Source: Burkholderiaceae bacterium
GTDB taxonomy: Bacteria; Pseudomonadota; Gammaproteobacteria; Burkholderiales; Burkholderiaceae_E
Assembly (NCBI GenBank): GCA_900299025.1
Contig: OMIE01000096.1
Location: 1-48,018 of the forward strand
Length of the DNA stretch: 48,018 nucleotides
Direction of reading: 5' to 3'
In this document: in pieces, positions 2,680 through 11,286 of the stretch
Position numbering within the stretch: position 1 is the stretch's first letter
Layout of the letters: the number at the start of each line of letters is the position of its first letter
Made by a program: the position numbers and the translations under genes
The notes under the pieces: generated by a model
Database searches by the model: none
What the model saw: the letters and a program-made list of their open reading frames with translations, nothing else
Told to the model about the DNA's origin: nothing

Positions 2680-3654
2680 CTAATGGGTGGTCGGTTTAAT
2701 GAGTCGCTCGCTTCGATTTATGGAGCGAATATTGATGGTCATCAGTTCGGCGCCCCTAGCGATTTGCAAAGGGACCTCGACACCCGCTTGCCCGATCGAC
2801 CAGACATGGCGATAAAAATTAGCAAGATCCTGGACCCGTTGCCCTGCTACAGACACAAGCAAATCTTCAGGTAGGATGCCAGCCTCCTCAGCTGGTCCTT
2901 GTGGGCTTGCATGCTGGACCACAAGTTGTTCATCGTGCTCTTCGAGATACAGGCCTAGCCAAGGCCTGGGAGGAAGTCCGCTATGCCCTTGTTTAATAAG
3001 ATTATTTAGAATAGGGACAAGAAGATCAATCGGGACGACCATATTGCTTTGTTGAGTTTGGCCTTGCTTTAACTCCTGGGTGAGCAAGGAGCCGATCCCA
3101 ACCAATTCGCCCTTGACATTTAAGAGCGGCGAACCACTCCATTCCGGATGAGCGGGCTCGATGAACAAGGCCTGCTCGAGCAAGTACTCCCAAGACCCTG
3201 CAAATGGCTTCACGGCGGCTATGCTTGTCTTTAAGCATTGGTGTATGCCGCCATGCCCAAGCATATAAACCTTATCATGTTTCCTTAAGTCATTAGCCTT
3301 ACCGATCGGTATGTAGCCGCATTCAAGCTTGCTAAAACTTTTGAGGATGCCAAATCCCGTAGGTTGATCATAGGCAAGAACGTCGGCTTGCACGACTGAG
3401 CCGTCACGTTTGCGACACCAAATTTGCTGAGCCTCGGTAACAAGGTAGCCGATTGTGAGAATGTGGCCTTCGCTATCGATGACGACGCCGTGACCACTGC
3501 GGGTTGTCCCCAGAATAGGCGCGGTATAGGCGTGATCAGGCACTTGAATATGCAATTGAAGCAGTGCATCGAGTCGTTGTTCTAGGTCGAACTCGAGTTT
3601 CAGTGGGTCTGGGCGAAGCGATTTGGGAAAAGACCATGGATCAAGGCTAAACAT
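2680..3654 (-). CDS. HtrA-like S1C family protein with PDZ domain, catalytic His and Asp missing
   Basis: The fold resembles DegP/HtrA: a trypsin-like domain (about 40-215) followed by one PDZ domain (about 230-315, PWLGLYLEE then SPQGPAEEAGILPEDLL). Aligning by eye to HtrA motifs, TNNHVV corresponds to TIGYLV, so the catalytic His is Tyr70. TDLAVLK corresponds to TGFGILK, so the catalytic Asp is Gly100. GNSGGPL corresponds to EWSGSPL, so Ser173 is kept but the oxyanion glycine is changed. No signal peptide is visible, so it may be cytoplasmic. These replacements argue against normal proteolysis; a scaffold, chaperone or peptide-sensing role is possible. The reading frame is intact and PDZ residues look conserved, which argues against a decaying pseudogene. 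It is divergent from dtd. Confidence 0.8.
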   Translation of the reverse strand: MFSLDPWSFPKSLRPDPLKLEFDLEQRLDALLQLHIQVPDHAYTAPILGTTRSGHGVVIDSEGHILTIGYLVTEAQQIWCRKRDGSVVQADVLAYDQPTGFGILKSFSKLECGYIPIGKANDLRKHDKVYMLGHGGIHQCLKTSIAAVKPFAGSWEYLLEQALFIEPAHPEWSGSPLLNVKGELVGIGSLLTQELKQGQTQQSNMVVPIDLLVPILNNLIKQGHSGLPPRPWLGLYLEEHDEQLVVQHASPQGPAEEAGILPEDLLVSVAGQRVQDLANFYRHVWSIGQAGVEVPLQIARGAELMTINIRSINRSERLIKPTTH

Positions 3655-3710
3655 CGGTGCATACTCGGAGGAATCGGATATCTGAATTATTTGGAGCCAT
3701 TCTAGGGCCT

Positions 3711-4175
3711 ATGAAAGCAGTGATTCAAAGGGTGAGTCGAGCGTCGGTTAGCGTAGAGCAAAAGCCCGTTGGCTCGATCGGCGCTGGCATGCTCATTTTT
3801 GTGTGCGCAGAGCCAAATGATGGGCAAAAGGTCATCCGAAAATTTGTTGATAAAGTTTTGAAGCTCCGCATTTTCGCAGACGATGAAGGCAAGATGAACC
3901 GAAACATTGTCAATATCGATGGTAAAGGGCAGTGCGGCGGCCTATTGATCGTGAGTCAGTTCACCCTCGCTGCCGACATATGGGCTGGCAATCGACCGAG
4001 CTTTACCGCAGCAGCACCACCCGAACACGCACGATATTGTTATGAAGCATTACTTGCATACGCCAAAAGCCAACACCCCATCGTTCAAAGCGGAAGCTTC
4101 GGTGCTGATATGAAGGTTGAACTCATTAATGATGGCCCAGCCAGCTTTTTAATGGATCTATGCGAAACCCCATGA
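3711..4175 (+). CDS. dtd: D-aminoacyl-tRNA deacylase (DTD)
   Basis: This cytoplasmic enzyme hydrolyses D-amino acids (and glycine mischarged on tRNA-Ala) from tRNA. The start at 3711 gives MKAVIQRVSRASV, the typical DTD N-terminus. An upstream in-frame start at 3657 would lie two bases from the divergent HtrA-like start and adds non-homologous residues. The SQFTLAAD...GNRPSFTAAAPPEHA motif holds the first active-site region. The C-terminal Gly-cisPro motif reads NDGPASF, whereas the common form is NDGPVTF; the Gly-Pro pair itself is kept. Length is 154 residues, slightly longer than the usual 145. The stop overlaps the next start as ATGA. Confidence 0.95.
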   Translation: MKAVIQRVSRASVSVEQKPVGSIGAGMLIFVCAEPNDGQKVIRKFVDKVLKLRIFADDEGKMNRNIVNIDGKGQCGGLLIVSQFTLAADIWAGNRPSFTAAAPPEHARYCYEALLAYAKSQHPIVQSGSFGADMKVELINDGPASFLMDLCETP

Positions 4176-4867
4176 GCGAAGCCTTAACCGATAGGCCCGA
4201 TCAGCTTGACGTGAAGTCAAGCGGTTTGCTCTATGTCGATCCGATCTCACCTTATGCGTATTTTTATCTCAAGCAGCTCGGTCGGCTCGATACATATATC
4301 GATGTAAAGATTATTCCTATACTATTTGGTGCGGTGCTCGCACACTGGGGCCAACTGGGTCCTGCGGAAATTGAAACAAAGCGCCGACACACGTATCAAC
4401 AATGTGTTTGGCTTGCCAAGCGCTTTGGAATCAAGTTCCAAATGCCGAACCGACATCCATTCAACCCGCTTGCTGCGTTGCGTTTACTTGTCTCGATGGG
4501 CAATTCGCGGCAAGCCATCGTTCAAACAAGTTCCTTTGTTTTTCAAGAAGGCAGAGACCCCGAATACGACTTCGCCGGATTGTGCGAGCGACTGGGCGTG
4601 GTCGACGGTGATCAAAGAATTCAAGACGACCATGTGAAGCAAGCGCTCAAGCAACAGACTCAAGCTGCAATCGATGCCGGCGTTTTTGGTGTACCCACCC
4701 TTGTCATTGACAGGCATTGTTTTTGGGGAGTCGACACTATCGATTGGGTGATTGATTATTTAGCAGACCCGGCCATGTTTGAACGCTCGGAAATGCAGGC
4801 GATCGAGCAGGTCGCTTGGGGCGTGCGTCGAAAGCGCGGATCAGGGGGGGGAGTGCATGAAAGCTGA
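4172..4867 (+). CDS. 2-hydroxychromene-2-carboxylate isomerase-like protein (kappa-class GST / DsbA fold)
   Basis: The protein has the DsbA/kappa-GST thioredoxin-like fold of NahD, which uses glutathione to isomerise 2-hydroxychromene-2-carboxylate in naphthalene degradation. The signature at about residues 23-29 (DPISPYAY) keeps Ser26, the position that activates glutathione in NahD. The cis-Pro loop is GVFGVPTLVID, followed by FWGVDTIDWVIDYL, also typical. Length (231 residues) fits. The chosen start at 4172 overlaps the dtd stop (ATGA); another ATG lies four codons upstream. No other naphthalene-pathway gene is near, and homologues are widespread in beta-proteobacteria without such pathways, so the real substrate is unknown. 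Its end overlaps the start of the BLUF gene. Confidence 0.85.
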   Translation: MSEALTDRPDQLDVKSSGLLYVDPISPYAYFYLKQLGRLDTYIDVKIIPILFGAVLAHWGQLGPAEIETKRRHTYQQCVWLAKRFGIKFQMPNRHPFNPLAALRLLVSMGNSRQAIVQTSSFVFQEGRDPEYDFAGLCERLGVVDGDQRIQDDHVKQALKQQTQAAIDAGVFGVPTLVIDRHCFWGVDTIDWVIDYLADPAMFERSEMQAIEQVAWGVRRKRGSGGGVHES

Positions 4868-5282
4868 CGATGCATTTGTCCATCTGAGCTATTGTAGTCA
4901 GGCGCGTGCTGATCTTAGTTCGACTGATTTGGACTGTTTGCTTGATATATCCAAAAAAAACAATAAAAGGGATCAAATCACGGGATTGCTCACTTATAGC
5001 GGCGATATCTTCATCCAGTTTATCGAGGGTCCGAAGCGATCGATTGATCAATTGATGTACCGTTTGCGTGGTGATCTGAGGCACCGGGATTTGATCGTGT
5101 TATCCGAGGGGGAGGGGCATGTCCGTCTGCTCCCCGATTGGGACATGGAGCTAGTGAGTGCCTATGAAGCGCATCACCTGCTTCGCGATGCGCTTAGGGA
5201 ATCTGATCGTTATAGTACGGTTATCGCATTATCAAGATTACTCGCGAAGTTGCAACCTGAGTTTTATCGGGATCCTGAATAA
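4857..5282 (+). CDS. stand-alone BLUF-domain blue-light sensor
   Basis: This 141-residue cytoplasmic protein consists of one FAD-binding BLUF domain plus a short helical tail. All photocycle residues are present at the spacing known from AppA: Tyr12 (AppA Tyr21), Asn36 (Asn45), Gln54 (Gln63), Trp95 (Trp104) and Met97 (Met106). The surrounding text also fits (LSYCSQA, NNKRDQITGLLTYSGDIFIQ, FIEGPKRS, DLRHRDL). The start at 4857 is preceded by a G-rich ribosome-binding site (AGGGGGGGAG) and overlaps the end of the NahD-like gene by 11 bases, suggesting co-transcription. There is no fused output domain, so signalling must go through a partner, as in PixD/PapB-type short BLUF proteins. No candidate partner such as an EAL or GGDEF protein is seen in the window. 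Confidence 0.92.
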   Translation: MKADDAFVHLSYCSQARADLSSTDLDCLLDISKKNNKRDQITGLLTYSGDIFIQFIEGPKRSIDQLMYRLRGDLRHRDLIVLSEGEGHVRLLPDWDMELVSAYEAHHLLRDALRESDRYSTVIALSRLLAKLQPEFYRDPE

Positions 5283-5395
5283 GAGCACCAAAGCTTGTAT
5301 AAACCCCAGTGCGAGGCTTTATGTGTTTGGAGAATCCTTGCATTCCGGATCAGGCTACGTTGTTTCCCAAGCGTATCGTAGCTGATAATCAGTGT

Positions 5396-6325
5396 ATGAA
5401 CCCTGAAATTCCAACCCTTAGCCTTCGCAGTCTCGACCAAGCCCAAAGCATTGAGCAATTGAGGAGGGCTTACGAAGAAGTTGGTTTTGTGGTCATTACC
5501 GACCATGGCATTTCGCGGGCACTGATCGATCCTTTCCTTGCGATGTTCCAGCTTTTTTTTCAATGGCCTGAGCCCAAAAAGTTGGCCTATCGTCTAGCCC
5601 ATGGTGCTGGCGCGAGAGGTTACACACCCTTTGGTGTAGAGACGGCGAAGGGTAGCGATCATGTTGATCTCAAAGAGTTTTGGCATATCGGCCGTGAGTT
5701 AATTGCAGGTCATCCCTATCGGCGCTACATGCCTGAAAATTTGTGGATCGAGGAGATCCACGGATTTAGGTCACTTTGCCTGGAAGTTTTCCACGCGTTC
5801 GATCAAACCGGCCAGCGCCTTTTGCGGGCCATCGCCCAAGTGTTGGGGTTGGCCCCTGATTTTTTTAATGACAAAGTGAATCTTGGCAATAGTGTATTGC
5901 GTGTGATTCACTATCCGCCGATATCGTCTTCGCCGACTCAGAGCCTCCGCGCAGGTTCGCACGAAGATATTAATGTGATTACATTGTTGTTAGGTGCTGA
6001 AGAGCCGGGCTTACAGGTGCGTACCCGCGCTGGTGAGTGGATACCGGTTAATCCGCAACCTGGGTCCATGGTGGTCAATGTTGGCGACATGTTGCAGCGA
6101 CTTAGCAACGGCGTGCTGAAGTCAACGAGCCATCGGGTGGTCAATCCTGCTGGAGAACGGTCGAAACGCTCGAGATACTCGATGCCTTTTTTCTTGCACT
6201 TTAATCCAGATTTTTTGATTGAGGCGATTGCCTCATGCTGCGGACCTGGGCGTCCGACACCAGCTGTGCCAATGCTCGCTGATGATTACTTACAAGAGCG
6301 TTTGCGCGAGATCCGCCTCAAATAG
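5396..6325 (+). CDS. isopenicillin N synthase-like Fe(II)/2-oxoglutarate-dependent dioxygenase
   Basis: This is a cytoplasmic non-haem iron oxygenase of the DIOX_N plus 2OG-FeII_Oxy architecture. The N-terminal domain starts PEIPTLSLRSLDQ and includes GFVVITDHGI. The iron ligands are His189, Asp191 (GSHEDIN) and His246 (TSHRVVNP). The co-substrate motif is Arg260-x-Ser262 (RYSMPFFLHFNPD). The call of 309 residues uses ATG 5396. ATG 5321, preceded by GAGG, would add 25 residues and cannot be excluded. Bacterial members of this family include enzymes on pyrimidines, small acids and 2-oxoglutarate-to-ethylene; the substrate here is not evident. The next gene is a nucleoside transporter 15 bases downstream, which makes a nucleoside or base substrate conceivable but unproven. 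Confidence 0.85.
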   Translation: MNPEIPTLSLRSLDQAQSIEQLRRAYEEVGFVVITDHGISRALIDPFLAMFQLFFQWPEPKKLAYRLAHGAGARGYTPFGVETAKGSDHVDLKEFWHIGRELIAGHPYRRYMPENLWIEEIHGFRSLCLEVFHAFDQTGQRLLRAIAQVLGLAPDFFNDKVNLGNSVLRVIHYPPISSSPTQSLRAGSHEDINVITLLLGAEEPGLQVRTRAGEWIPVNPQPGSMVVNVGDMLQRLSNGVLKSTSHRVVNPAGERSKRSRYSMPFFLHFNPDFLIEAIASCCGPGRPTPAVPMLADDYLQERLREIRLK

Positions 6326-6340
6326 CATAGGCCAATAGGT

Positions 6341-7591
6341 GTGAATTCGTCATTGCAAGCAGCTCTTGGGATCATCGTTTTCGTGGTCCTAGTACTGCCC
6401 TTATCCAAGGATAGAAAACGCATCAGCTGGCGTCTTGTACTAATCGCTATTGCGTTGCAATTTGCAATATGCTGGTTAATGCTTAAAGCGCCGCTTGTTA
6501 AAGAAGTGCTTTTGCAACTAAACCTTGCGGTAAGTGCACTTGGCACCGCAACGCTGCGAGGAAGCTCCTTTGTCTTCGGTTATTTGGGTGGTGGTGATAC
6601 ACCTTTTAGCGTTAGCAATCCAAACAGTTTGGTGATTTTCGCTTTTCAAGTGTTGCCGCTTTTGATTGTGATGTCTGCGCTTTCTGCACTCCTTTGGTAT
6701 TGGCGTGTCTTGCCTTGGCTCATACGATCGATCGCCTTGGTCTTTGAGCGAACACTCGGGGTTAGAGGGCCGGCGGGGTTGGTTTCGACAGCCAACATCT
6801 TTCTGGGTCAAACCGAAGCACCTTTGCTGGTGCGCCCCTATTTGGCCAGTATGTCCTCGCATGAACTCCTACTGGTGATGACCGCTGGCATGGCTACGAT
6901 CGCAGGTTCGGTCATGGTGATTTATTCAGCGATGTTAGGAGATTTGTTTCAAGGTGCGATGGGGCATTTAATCACCAAGTCGGTGATGTCGGTGCCTGCA
7001 TCGGTTTTGTTTGCCCATTTGCTCTTACCCGATGCCGGTCATCATGCGCAAACACTTCAAGCGCCTCCGCGAATTTACGAAAGTTCGATGGACGCAATCA
7101 CGCGCGGGACTAGCGATGGTTTATCGCTCTATTTAAATATTATTGCGATACTTATTGTCTTGACGGCCTTGGTTGCACTGGCCAATGGTCTGGTGGGTTT
7201 TCTGCCCGACGTATTAGGTGCGCCACTTACGCTCGAGCGGATTGCGGGCTGGATATTTGCACCCATCGCCTGGCTTATGGGGATTGATTGGACTGAGGCG
7301 GCTAAAGTGGGTTCGCTGCTTGGCGTGAAAAGCGTGCTCAATGAGTTCATTGCCTACATACAGCTAAGTGCCATGCCTGCTGACGCTTTATCGGATCGAT
7401 CGCGTCTCATCGCCATGTATGCCTTGTGCGGATTTGCCAATCTCGCAAGCATTGGCATCCAGATTAGTGGAATTGGCACGATGGCACCTGAGCGCCGAGC
7501 GGACCTAGCAGCGCTGGCATGGCCCGCCTTCTTGGCTGCAACGCTTGCTTCATGTATGAATGCAAGCGTTGTTGCGATCATAACGAACTAA
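6341..7591 (+). CDS. concentrative nucleoside transporter, CNT/NupC family
   Basis: This is an inner-membrane symporter expected to take up nucleosides with H+ or Na+. The 416-residue protein contains about ten hydrophobic segments. It carries the CNT family markers: GQTEAPLLVRPYL (the QTE substrate/ion site) near residue 168 and LNEFIAYIQLS near 337, which contains the conserved Asn-Glu. The SNPNSLVIFAFQVLP region and GVRGPAGLVSTANIF are also typical. The start is GTG, 15 bases after the oxygenase stop, so the two are probably co-transcribed. Whether it prefers purine or pyrimidine nucleosides cannot be read here. Confidence 0.93.
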   Translation: MNSSLQAALGIIVFVVLVLPLSKDRKRISWRLVLIAIALQFAICWLMLKAPLVKEVLLQLNLAVSALGTATLRGSSFVFGYLGGGDTPFSVSNPNSLVIFAFQVLPLLIVMSALSALLWYWRVLPWLIRSIALVFERTLGVRGPAGLVSTANIFLGQTEAPLLVRPYLASMSSHELLLVMTAGMATIAGSVMVIYSAMLGDLFQGAMGHLITKSVMSVPASVLFAHLLLPDAGHHAQTLQAPPRIYESSMDAITRGTSDGLSLYLNIIAILIVLTALVALANGLVGFLPDVLGAPLTLERIAGWIFAPIAWLMGIDWTEAAKVGSLLGVKSVLNEFIAYIQLSAMPADALSDRSRLIAMYALCGFANLASIGIQISGIGTMAPERRADLAALAWPAFLAATLASCMNASVVAIITN

Positions 7592-7619
7592 TATTTAAAC
7601 CAAAATTTTGCTCTGCACC

Positions 7620-9221
7620 ATGATCTCCAACAGCATGCCTATGCATTTTCCCTTAAACGACCCGTGCACAATGGGTGATTTGATTATTCGTGCGATACAG
7701 CGTGGCGCAGATCGCATTGCGTTTGTGCTCGATGAACAGCAAATAAGCTATCGCGCGTTTGGCGACATGCTTAGCAAAATGTTCCAGTTTATGCAGTCCA
7801 AAGGGCTAAAGCGTGGCGATGCAATCGCTTGCCTTTCCTCGAATCGTCCCGAGGCTTTTCTAGTGAACGCAGCTGCCTACCTGCTGGGACTTCGGTCGAC
7901 CTGGATGCATCCACTCGCTTCAGAAGACGATCATGCTTATTTGATTGAAGACTCCGGAGTAAGTCACTTATTCGTCGACCCTTTAGCCTTCGAAGCAAGA
8001 GCACATGCTTTGGTGGCAAGACTACCGGGACTTCAAGCAGTTTTTAGTCTTGGTCCCTGTCGTAATCCCAAGCCTCTCGGTGACGATGCGCTTGAGGGTA
8101 TGAATGACTTTCATCCTCAGCCTTTGCGGTGCTTGGCTCACGCAGACGACATATGCACGCTCATTTACACAGGGGGTACAACTGGCAAGCCTAAGGGGGT
8201 TATTCACACCCATCGGGTGCAAGTGACCATGGTCATGAGCGAACTGTGCGACTGGGATTGGCCAGAAGAGGTGCGCTTTTTGGCGATGACGCCAATCACC
8301 CATGCAGCAGGTGCCATGATTGTTGCGGTGATGGCAAAGGCCGGTTGCTTCGTAATGAGTAAGGGCTTTGATCCACAGCGATTCTTTGAACTGGTCGAGC
8401 GGCATCGAATCACCTGTACCTTTTTGGTCCCCACCATGATTTATGTACTACTCGATCATCCAGGGATAGAGCAAGCGGATTGCTCAAGTTTAAAGACGGT
8501 GATTTATGGGGCCTCGCCGATGGCTCCCGCCAGGCTCATCGAAGGTATGCGGCGTTGGGGACCGGTGTTTATGCAGCTCTATGGCCAATCAGAGGCGCCC
8601 AATTGTGTGACAAGCCTGAGAAAAAGTGAGCATGACCCGATTCATCATCCCGAGCGTCTTGCCTCGTGCGGATTGCCTACGACCGCAGTTCAGCTCGCTT
8701 TACTCGATGAAGAAGGCCGCGAGGTTGCGCTCGGCGAAGTCGGCGAGATCTGTGTTCGTGGGCCGCTTGTGATGACAGGCTACTGGGCAAAGCCGGAGGA
8801 AACAGCGAAGGCATTGCGTGGCGACTGGCTGCACACCGGTGATCTAGCCAGGCGTGATGAAGCGGGTTATTTATATATTGTTGATCGTAGTAAAGATATG
8901 ATCATTACCGGGGGATTCAATGTATTCCCAAGGGAAGTCGAAGATGTGCTGACCAAACACCCTAACGTAGCAGCGGCTGCAGTCATTGGAGTACCCGACC
9001 CCAAATGGGGCGAGGCAGTCAAAGCGATTGTAGTCCTCAAGCCAGGCGCAAAGGTAAGCGAGGAGGCCTTGATTGCTCTTGTTAGAGAGGCTAAGGGGGC
9101 CGTCCAAGCTCCTAAATCTATTGATTTTATCGATCAATTACCTGTAACAGGTTTGGGCAAACCAGACAAAAAGGCGCTTCGAAGCCGTTATTGGGGTGGG
9201 AAGGAAAGGGCGGTCAACTGA
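7620..9221 (+). CDS. AMP-dependent acyl-CoA synthetase (ANL superfamily)
   Basis: The enzyme activates a carboxylic acid to acyl-AMP and then acyl-CoA. Motifs in order are the P-loop-like IYTGGTTGKPKGVIHTHR, YGQSEAP (A5), LHTGDLARRDEAGYLYIVDRSKDMI (A7-A8, with the TGD and DR residues), GGFNVFPREVEDVL (hinge/linker) and GLGKPDKKALR with the catalytic Lys. Length is about 533 residues. ATG 7620 is the chosen start; TTG 7608 and ATG 7635 are alternatives, and none has a clear ribosome-binding site. It resembles medium/long-chain fatty acid and aromatic acid ligases; the substrate cannot be told. It lies 28 bases after the nucleoside transporter on the same strand. Confidence 0.88.
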   Translation: MISNSMPMHFPLNDPCTMGDLIIRAIQRGADRIAFVLDEQQISYRAFGDMLSKMFQFMQSKGLKRGDAIACLSSNRPEAFLVNAAAYLLGLRSTWMHPLASEDDHAYLIEDSGVSHLFVDPLAFEARAHALVARLPGLQAVFSLGPCRNPKPLGDDALEGMNDFHPQPLRCLAHADDICTLIYTGGTTGKPKGVIHTHRVQVTMVMSELCDWDWPEEVRFLAMTPITHAAGAMIVAVMAKAGCFVMSKGFDPQRFFELVERHRITCTFLVPTMIYVLLDHPGIEQADCSSLKTVIYGASPMAPARLIEGMRRWGPVFMQLYGQSEAPNCVTSLRKSEHDPIHHPERLASCGLPTTAVQLALLDEEGREVALGEVGEICVRGPLVMTGYWAKPEETAKALRGDWLHTGDLARRDEAGYLYIVDRSKDMIITGGFNVFPREVEDVLTKHPNVAAAAVIGVPDPKWGEAVKAIVVLKPGAKVSEEALIALVREAKGAVQAPKSIDFIDQLPVTGLGKPDKKALRSRYWGGKERAVN

Positions 9222-9234
9222 GGATGGATGATCA

Positions 9235-11286
9235 ATGACAATCAATGATCTTCACTTTGCGTTCATTACTTGTATGACATGTTTGGCTATTGGCTCGATG
9301 GGTCCAGTATCGCAAGCTTGCGCGCAGGCAATCTTGCCGACGAGCTCAGAAGTACATGTCCTTCCGAATAATCAGTTGGTTGCCCAAGCAATACCACCAA
9401 TTCCGCGTCAGATAGCAAAATATGTTGAACGTTATACTGAGTTTCGTGGGCATTCGTTTGTTGGATGGCATCCGCATAAGCGCGAAATGTTGGTGAGTCA
9501 TCGGCCGCAGGGGTCGAGTGTTAGTCAAATCTTCCGCCTTAGTGAGCCTCTCGGTACACTCGAGCCCATCACAAGTAGTGACGAGCCTATTCGGTTTGCC
9601 AGCTACGAGCCGAAGCATGCAAGATACATCGTCTACTCAAAATTTTCGGGTGGTAATGAAGCATCACAACTTTACCGGAAGGACCTCGATGAATTGGGCT
9701 CAGAGGTTTTGCTGACAAACCCGGACGAACGCCATACGTTTCATGCTTGGAATCGTTTCGCTTCCACCATGATCTACAGCTCAGTTCCGCTTGATCGAAC
9801 TGCGAAAGGCGGGTCGAGAAAGCAGGTAAGCACCTCGCTAAGGGAAATCGATCCTTTGCGAATTGATAGTTCACGCGAAATTGCGCAATTACCCGGCGTG
9901 GGCTGGTTTGCGGGAGAGGTGTCCCCAGATGGGCGCTTCATCGTTGTCAATCGATATATTTCTGCAAATGAATCAGAGGTTTGGTTACTGGATTTAGACA
10001 GTGGAGGACGGCAACGCCTGCTTCCAAAAATCGACGATAAAGAGCCGGCCATCCACTTTGCAGGGGAGTTTCTACCCGATCAATCTGGCCTTGTTGTGCT
10101 TACGGACCGACATGGTGAGTTTCGAGAGGCGTCAATTTTTGATTTCAAATCGGCATCATTGAATCGACTGACAAGCCATATTCCCTGGGATATTGCAGCT
10201 GGATCACTTAGTCGTGACGGCGGTCGCCTTGCACTTTTGGCTAATGAAGACGGAAAGCGTTCACTGCGACTTCTTGTCGGCAAGGCGCTGACGGAGTACC
10301 CTGCGGTAGGACTCCCTGAAGGCTCTCTAGACGCCATTTCATTTCACGAGCGTGAGCCTTTGTTGGCGTTTGGTGTAAGGAGCGCGCAAAGCCCAGGCGT
10401 AATTTACAGCTATCAGCCAGAGTCTGGGGTTGTTTTGCAGTGGACAAAGCCTTACGCCCATCCAGATGTTGATGTTTCGGCATTTGCAGAGCAGAGCATT
10501 ATTCGATGGCAGAGCTTTGATTCACGCTCCATTTCTGGCTTGATTTCGCGTCCACCGGCACGCTTTACTGGAAAGCGTCCGGTTCTCATCGATATTCACG
10601 GTGGGCCCGAAGCACAAGCTGGCGTTGAATTCCTCGGACGTATGCAGTTTTTCGTTCAGGATCTTGGTATAGCAGTTATTCGACCAAATGTTCGCGGCTC
10701 CACTGGCTTTGGAAAACGATTTGTTGCTCTTGATAATGGCAGGTTGAGAGAAGATGCTGTCAAGGACATCGGCGCACTTCTTGACTGGATCGCAGGCCAA
10801 CCGGACCTCGACGCGAGTAAAGTCGTGGTGGCGGGTGGGAGCTACGGCGGCTACATGAGCCTTGCGACTGCTGTGCACTACAGCGACAGAATCGCTGGCG
10901 CTATCAATGTTGTCGGTATATCGCATTTCGTTACTTTTCTTGAAACAACAGAGAGCTATCGTAGGGACTTGCGCCGAGTGGAATATGGTGACGAACGAGA
11001 CCCAGAGATGCGTGCCTTTTTGCATAGCATTTCACCACTGACCAATGCCGCTCGTATTACAAAGCCTTTATTCGTTATTCAAGGCAAAAACGATCCGAGG
11101 GTTCCCTATACTGAAGCAGAGCAAATTGTTGCAGAAGTTAGAAAAAATGGCACTAGCGTGTGGTATCTCCGAGCGGAGAATGAGGGTCATGGATTTGCTA
11201 GAAAGGAAAACGCAGATTTTCAGTTTTACGCTATGGTTATCTTTTTAAAGCGATACCTACTAGGCGAGGCCTTTTCTAGCAATTAG
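9235..11286 (+). CDS. secreted S9 family (prolyl oligopeptidase-like) serine peptidase
   Basis: This is a 683-residue exported peptidase. A Sec signal peptide (about residues 1-32, ending QACAQA) precedes a seven-bladed beta-propeller region (about 50-420; WD40-like PD40 segments such as SPDGRFIVVNRY and SRDGGRLALLANEDG). The alpha/beta-hydrolase domain follows (about 430-680). The catalytic triad is Ser536 in GGSYGGYMS, Asp620 in GKNDPRVPY and His652 in NEGHGF. The oxyanion-type motif DIHGGPEAQ is at about 453, and RGSTGFGKRF is typical of acylaminoacyl-peptidase/DPP-type S9 enzymes. Likely location is the periplasm, with a role in oligopeptide breakdown. It ends facing the MFS gene, with only 45 bases between the two stops. 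Confidence 0.92.
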   Translation: MTINDLHFAFITCMTCLAIGSMGPVSQACAQAILPTSSEVHVLPNNQLVAQAIPPIPRQIAKYVERYTEFRGHSFVGWHPHKREMLVSHRPQGSSVSQIFRLSEPLGTLEPITSSDEPIRFASYEPKHARYIVYSKFSGGNEASQLYRKDLDELGSEVLLTNPDERHTFHAWNRFASTMIYSSVPLDRTAKGGSRKQVSTSLREIDPLRIDSSREIAQLPGVGWFAGEVSPDGRFIVVNRYISANESEVWLLDLDSGGRQRLLPKIDDKEPAIHFAGEFLPDQSGLVVLTDRHGEFREASIFDFKSASLNRLTSHIPWDIAAGSLSRDGGRLALLANEDGKRSLRLLVGKALTEYPAVGLPEGSLDAISFHEREPLLAFGVRSAQSPGVIYSYQPESGVVLQWTKPYAHPDVDVSAFAEQSIIRWQSFDSRSISGLISRPPARFTGKRPVLIDIHGGPEAQAGVEFLGRMQFFVQDLGIAVIRPNVRGSTGFGKRFVALDNGRLREDAVKDIGALLDWIAGQPDLDASKVVVAGGSYGGYMSLATAVHYSDRIAGAINVVGISHFVTFLETTESYRRDLRRVEYGDERDPEMRAFLHSISPLTNAARITKPLFVIQGKNDPRVPYTEAEQIVAEVRKNGTSVWYLRAENEGHGFARKENADFQFYAMVIFLKRYLLGEAFSSN

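Follow-up and report, generated by a model that had tools for sequence, protein, structure and literature searches.

In short BLUF photoreceptors the C-terminal helices pack on the face of the sheet that points away from the flavin. The cyanobacterial PixD proteins (Slr1694, Tll0078) are stand-alone BLUFs whose partner is PixE, and BlrB of Rhodobacter sphaeroides (2byc), with about 140 amino acids, is likewise short. Acinetobacter baumannii is not phototrophic; its short BLUF, BlsA, is reported, in the excerpts available, to act through a regulator.

AppA serves the control of photosynthesis genes via PpsR, as described in the available excerpts of PMC10890935, and continues past its BLUF domain into a SCHIC domain (PMC4844311, also in excerpt). 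For Congregibacter, the excerpted text of Spring et al. 2009 (PMC2654016) reports that pigment expression is changed by blue light only, that AppA is lacking and that one of two BLUF genes lies near ppsR, and it proposes modulation of PpsR, by an unspecified route, through a BLUF protein of a single domain. The protein concerned, KT71_19323 of Congregibacter litoralis KT71, is a stand-alone BLUF in a bacteriochlorophyll-bearing host (PMC2654016). The BLUF-PpsR idea is restated in excerpts of PMC3666943, according to which green light is active too in two relatives, and excerpts of PMC3176799 place a BLUF gene upstream of the photosynthesis cluster in the Congregibacter clade. The blue-light task has other solutions too, as in Dinoroseobacter, where the LOV protein LdaP is a blue-light antirepressor of PpsR and where, according to the excerpts of PMC10890935, there is no AppA homologue.

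The gene described here occupies positions 4857..5282 on the forward strand (ATG at 4857, TAA at 5282) of the window, by which we mean the whole 48,018-nucleotide stretch analysed (contig OMIE01000096.1, our C96, of the Burkholderiaceae assembly GCA_900299025.1, our G000). Its product of 141 amino acids is identified as a short BLUF photoreceptor by Pfam, alignment and a structural model. The BLUF domain (PF04940) covers residues 8-98 (E = 2.7e-24; 85.5 bits against a cut-off of 25) and the Pfam scan found no other domain in the protein, in agreement with an earlier note on this DNA, which had described a BLUF protein without an output domain. A phmmer alignment pairs residues 7-101 with residues 16-110 of AppA chain 2iyg, an offset of nine at either end. 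This constant offset fits the register of the AppA pocket residues, which we take to be Tyr21, Asn45, Gln63, Trp104 and Met106. All five counterparts named in the earlier note are indeed present: the photoactive Tyr12 (its codon and that of Cys13 at 4890..4895, placed by translation and group alignment), Asn36 (4962..4964; a flavin contact by the AppA register), Gln54 of the photocycle (5016..5018), and Trp95 and Met97 of the BLUF pocket (codons for Trp95, Asp96, Met97 and Glu98 at 5139..5150), all on the forward strand. The orthologues in two congeneric genomes, G001 (78% identity) and G003 (60%), retain the photocycle residues, so this set of residues is not a matter of chance.

An AlphaFold2 model computed from an 80-sequence alignment (mean pLDDT 81.7, pTM 0.72) displays the BLUF sheet and helices followed by C-terminal helices at residues 102-115 and 119-132; together these two helices (residues 102-132; 5160..5252, forward strand) form a proposed output face. 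With no effector domain in Pfam and two C-terminal helices in the model, the protein falls into the short, stand-alone BLUF class. Since its chain stops at residue 141, it has neither the SCHIC domain nor any of the further C-terminal part that AppA carries, and it does not belong to the AppA family. Foldseek returned TePixD, Slr1694, BlrB, photoactivated cyclases and AppA among the top PDB matches, the PixD structures matching best and across the whole model; BlsA (6w72) was also matched, but lower, at rank 47. NCBIfam had no name for this protein or for those of the NahD-like and 2OG-dioxygenase genes on either side of it.

A profile of 12 relatives (A1) run on 84,980 species genomes gave 216 relatives, of which we kept the best 80, representing 79 loci; by record title these best-scoring loci are mostly from Burkholderiales, plus Halieaceae and some alphaproteobacteria. 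The relatives constitute a distinct group. An 80-row profile (A2) scores group members at 161-216 bits and 43 other BLUFs at no more than 94.5; AppA reaches 81-86 bits and PixD 70-76, against at least 161 for group members. The best PDB match of A2 is a photoactivated cyclase (91.8 bits) and not AppA, which we count against our main reading. A profile from which the window clade (the window protein, L114, L115 and L116) was left out still gives the window protein 129 bits and all other BLUFs at most 93.3, with the four other BLUFs of the window genome at 68-86 bits. A 73-row tree, which sampled 26 of the 76 remaining group rows along with the four window-clade rows and the 43 other BLUFs, places the 30 group rows on one side of a branch with support 97/86 and shows the window clade as a long, divergent branch.

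Eleven positions are invariant in all 79 of these best-scoring loci: Tyr12, Cys13, Asn36, Gln54, Trp95, Met97, Glu98, Val100, Leu109, Ala112 and Leu125. Two of them make up a group signature, a Cys after the photoactive Tyr and a Glu after the active-site Met, and the window protein carries both; another set has Cys13 and Glu98 in 17/17 group rows and in 0/43 other BLUFs. BlrB, although it is the best single-sequence PDB match of the window protein (6.9e-14) and among the best fold matches, is without both signatures, having Arg after the Tyr and Arg after the Met. The window protein itself departs from several nearly invariant group residues, for example with Phe55 where the group has Trp and Ala105 where it has Ile, and because of this its partner or its tuning may have drifted from that of the group.

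Each of 42 reaction-centre genomes that we profiled (44 such genomes minus G109 and G124) has one strong group member, at 169-212 bits; the next-best match is at 111 bits once (G120, partial, a possible second copy) and otherwise at 98 or less. One genome of the window's family, G023, has two group members, and one member per genome thus appears to be the rule, not a strict one. At six of the 79 loci (L127, L144, L161, L169, L181 and L189) the gene immediately after the group member is a second BLUF, from outside the group, which makes a tandem pair of photoreceptors. Viral contigs yielded a single relative, weak and outside the group, and a viral origin was rejected on these grounds. Among plasmid records, a 2.8-Mb record in the plasmid set from Methylobacterium bullatum encodes a group-like protein with both signature residues (62.9% identity, 201 bits); the others score no more than 69 bits among the best 40 of 197. 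A search for pufM found it on 11 plasmid records and not on that of Methylobacterium bullatum; as this record is the one replicon of its host that was covered, we regard it as neutral, or as a mild point against a link to phototrophy.

Carriers of the group mostly have a reaction-centre gene. Among the 79 genomes from which the loci come, 73 (44 of 50 plus 29 of 29) have a match above cut-off to PF00124, which we read as the type-II reaction centre because the hosts are proteobacteria, a count that ignores kinship and concerns the best-scoring of 216 candidates, both of which weigh against it. Chromatocurvus halotolerans (L129), Rubrivivax pictus (L192) and Limnohabitans sp. 2KL-51 (L167) each have a group member and a reaction centre. 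The six genomes without a PF00124 match (L115, L116, L123, L137, L149, L151) are all titled as metagenome-assembled genomes (MAGs); L116 is G001, 62% complete, in which PpsR is present and puf was not found. This genome and G036 (78% complete), which carries the group and in which no reaction centre was found either, were counted against the link. Two loci titled Bordetella parapertussis (L161) and Akkermansia muciniphila (L182) come with reaction-centre genes as well as the group and are probably mislabelled MAGs.

Within the window's family (74 genomes, at least eight of them also among the 79, so that the two counts overlap) PF00124 was found in 13 of 15 carriers versus 14 of 59 other genomes (Fisher p = 1.2e-5, kinship ignored). 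Carriers were defined by an E value no higher than 2e-19, and the A2 profile scores their sequences in the range of the group. Set against the 16 family genomes with other BLUFs only, a list that is incomplete since the BLUF search covered 37 of the 74, the comparison is 13/15 versus 8/16 (p = 0.054, kinship again ignored), and this we count against the link, as we do the fact that no group member was seen in 14 of the family's 27 reaction-centre genomes. The window genome itself has pufL and pufM on contig C94 and PpsR on C143 (357.5 bits for the main stretch). This 3-Mb genome holds five BLUF genes, on C82, C92, C132 and C143 in addition to the window contig; those on C132 and C143 encode proteins of 224 and 211 amino acids with a long C-terminal part, and the C143 gene lies about 29 kb from PpsR on the same contig.

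The group is not encoded in the photosynthesis cluster as far as draft genomes can tell: among the 42 genomes, G116 alone has a group member and puf on a single contig, 1.35 Mb apart, different contigs of a draft being no proof of distance, and we rejected such linkage to this extent. At one of the 79 loci (L134) some 4.3 kb separate the BLUF gene from a gene resembling what is presumably bchC, with puf on another contig. In five of the 42 genomes a BLUF gene does lie 8-30 kb from puf (G100:C2:24747, G101:C47:37759, G103:C3:63139, G105:C3:279675 and G129:C13:40062), but because these proteins score only 66-79 bits against the group profile they are a different paralogue. The group is thus a second BLUF candidate, outside the cluster, beside the near-cluster paralogue. 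It differs in this from KT71_19323, known to us from its published description, which lies close to ppsR according to the excerpts of PMC2654016. A search for the PpsR box in 80 upstream stretches gave 0/80 under strict and 1/80 under loose settings, versus 2.7 in shuffled sequences, and no box in the vicinity of the window gene. If the group acts on PpsR, protein contact is the route that this leaves.

The immediate surroundings of the window gene invite a different interpretation. Its start has an 11-base overlap with the end of a DsbA-family gene at 4160..4867 (forward strand), as the earlier note had observed; we assume the name NahD for this gene, and DSBA is the sole Pfam assignment of its product. 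The NahD-like gene in turn overlaps a D-aminoacyl-tRNA deacylase (DTD) gene at 3657..4175 (forward strand), thought not to be a target. Downstream, the 2OG-Fe(II) dioxygenase gene that the earlier note had reported is also in place (5399..6325, forward strand), its likely start being the ATG at 5399, 116 bases past the BLUF stop codon; we prefer this start because the longer reading from the GTG at 5309 crosses the remnant of another gene. That remnant, some 25 decayed codons from the front of an amidohydrolase gene, with the start codon lost (5291..5368, reverse strand; longer in genome G002), marks a rearrangement junction. Promoter and terminator patterns between window positions 3500 and 6500 were close in number to shuffled counts.

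Comparison with related genomes indicates how the BLUF and 2OG genes came together. The congener G001 retains the deacylase - NahD-like - BLUF order (72% identity for the NahD-like protein), followed by an ABC solute-binding gene. G002 aligns to window positions 5292-10453 at 92.7%, its 2OG protein being 95% identical to that of the window; the similarity ends 10 bases past the BLUF stop codon, and an amidohydrolase gene in the opposite direction stands ahead of the 2OG gene. A G002 contig, C69, terminates within the NahD-like gene. In the window genome itself, contig C109 carries an amidohydrolase gene and an ABC operon. Ahead of the operon's solute-binding gene stands the decayed 3' end of a BLUF gene, interrupted by in-frame stops (L111, about 8150-8290, reverse strand). 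This decayed stretch is 94.5% identical to G001, whereas elsewhere the G001 contig in question shows 71-76% identity to the window, and the stretch looks like a recent exchange. The start of C109 (1-62) resembles what we recognise as Illumina/Nextera adapter, an assembly artefact. The simplest history would be an older order BLUF - ABC operon - amidohydrolase - 2OG, of which the middle was lost in the window. Judged by these alignments, the adjacency of BLUF and 2OG genes is a rearrangement junction, and the decayed remnant makes a real event more probable than a misassembly of the window. In G003, the neighbours of the BLUF orthologue differ from those in the window. The earlier note had named neighbours that differ in every close relative as evidence against itself; the order upstream is kept in one close relative, G001, and the setting is changed in another, so that this objection applies only in part. 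We conclude from the sequences that the setting of the window gene is accidental for the most part.

No neighbour recurs widely at the 79 loci drawn from the best 80 of 216 relatives. The NahD-like and DTD genes stand beside the BLUF gene at one locus (L116, which is G001) and a 2OG gene at none. When neighbours were clustered by sequence, the two largest clusters were the BLUF frame and its presumed antisense frame (12 loci), and no further cluster was present at more than five of the 79 loci. Pfam was run on neighbouring open reading frames that had been called mechanically, 63 of the 78 on the upstream side and 59 of the 78 on the downstream side; short, very long and contig-end rows had been dropped by eye, as had the downstream rows of L115 (a frame with stops) and L186. 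Among the 63 upstream frames no Pfam family matched more than three rows, and among the 59 downstream frames MFS_1 matched six and inorganic pyrophosphatase four. With no widely recurring neighbour, with different neighbours in G003 and with a junction in front of the 2OG gene, we rejected a function read from the neighbours; gene neighbourhood misleads for this sensor.

We favour, with moderate confidence, the view that the window gene encodes a blue-light sensor serving anoxygenic phototrophy via a remote protein partner. Because its relatives were found almost only in bacteria with bacteriochlorophyll-type photosynthesis genes, it probably serves the light response of phototrophs and not the unrelated adjoining genes. 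On this reading the protein would be a photoactive short BLUF of a distinct stand-alone group kept by bacteriochlorophyll-based phototrophs. Blue light would rearrange the hydrogen bonds between Tyr12, Gln54 and the flavin, as the residues suggest, and the strands that bear Tyr12/Cys13 and Met97/Glu98 would relay the change to the face under the two C-terminal helices. Tyr12 and Met97 should face the flavin, so the adjacent Cys13 and Glu98 should face the opposite side and would belong to the output face. That face may then bind or release a partner encoded elsewhere, most likely in a circuit that tunes photosynthesis or photoprotection genes to light; PpsR is the leading candidate, plausible and unproven, and the adjoining genes would not be targets.

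Other readings were weighed against this one. The earlier note had suggested that light might control either a metabolic or redox step close by or a remote partner. Control of the local operon, in which the BLUF would regulate or bind the product of one of the adjoining genes (NahD-like isomerase, deacylase or 2OG dioxygenase), draws on the overlapping DTD, NahD-like and BLUF genes and on the retention of their order in G001; given the other neighbours of the G003 orthologue, the junction before the 2OG gene, and the recurrence of the NahD-like and DTD genes at 1/79 loci and of the 2OG gene at 0/79, we consider it the least probable of the readings, and this half of the suggestion finds no support in the comparisons. 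The remote partner is the better half: no neighbour is constant, but 73 of 79 genomes with the group also have the reaction centre. It is also very unlikely that the window gene is a vestigial copy, a group member that drifted in this genus and whose task is carried out by one of the genome's four other BLUFs. The long branch of the window clade, the loss of the nearly invariant Trp55 and Ile105 and the decayed remnant on C109 are what such a copy might leave behind, but the photocycle and signature residues are all kept at 60-78% identity among congeners, which points to selection.

A general sensor of light or photo-oxidative stress in bacteria of sunlit waters, acting on motility, biofilm or stress responses, deserves more attention, although we hold it to be rather unlikely. 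Co-occurrence with the reaction centre would then reflect shared light-exposed lineages and not regulation of photosynthesis. Such a role would accord with BlsA, since short BLUFs elsewhere act, in the excerpts available, on unrelated regulators, with the partial association of the family's other BLUFs with the reaction centre (8/16), and with the lack of both a PpsR box and cluster linkage. It accounts less well for a reaction centre in 73 of 79 carriers (from the best 80 of 216 relatives), a stronger association than that of the family's other BLUFs, and for a group with invariant residues of its own.

Returning to the sensor of anoxygenic phototrophy that we favour, the window protein adds a new member to the short BLUFs. 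The BLUF-PpsR idea itself is already in print for Congregibacter (PMC2654016, in excerpt). In the open-licence literature we found no description of a BLUF group with the two signature residues and a link to phototrophy. More tentatively, and as a possibility that we ourselves doubt, the group could be a blue-light input dedicated to anoxygenic phototrophy in proteobacteria, with its gene apart from the photosynthesis cluster. It would then be the sensor so far missing in phototrophs without AppA, by which they repress pigment in blue light, working on a remote partner (PpsR or its antirepressor) through Cys13/Glu98 and the face of the C-terminal helices. If this is true, presence of the group would mark a genome as that of a phototroph. 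What gives the group its relevance is the pigment response to blue light in Congregibacter and the 2009 proposal of a BLUF acting on PpsR, as excerpted from PMC2654016: with two signature residues and with an occurrence that follows the reaction centre across alpha-, beta- and gammaproteobacteria, the group offers a definite target for deletion in phototrophs that are in culture.
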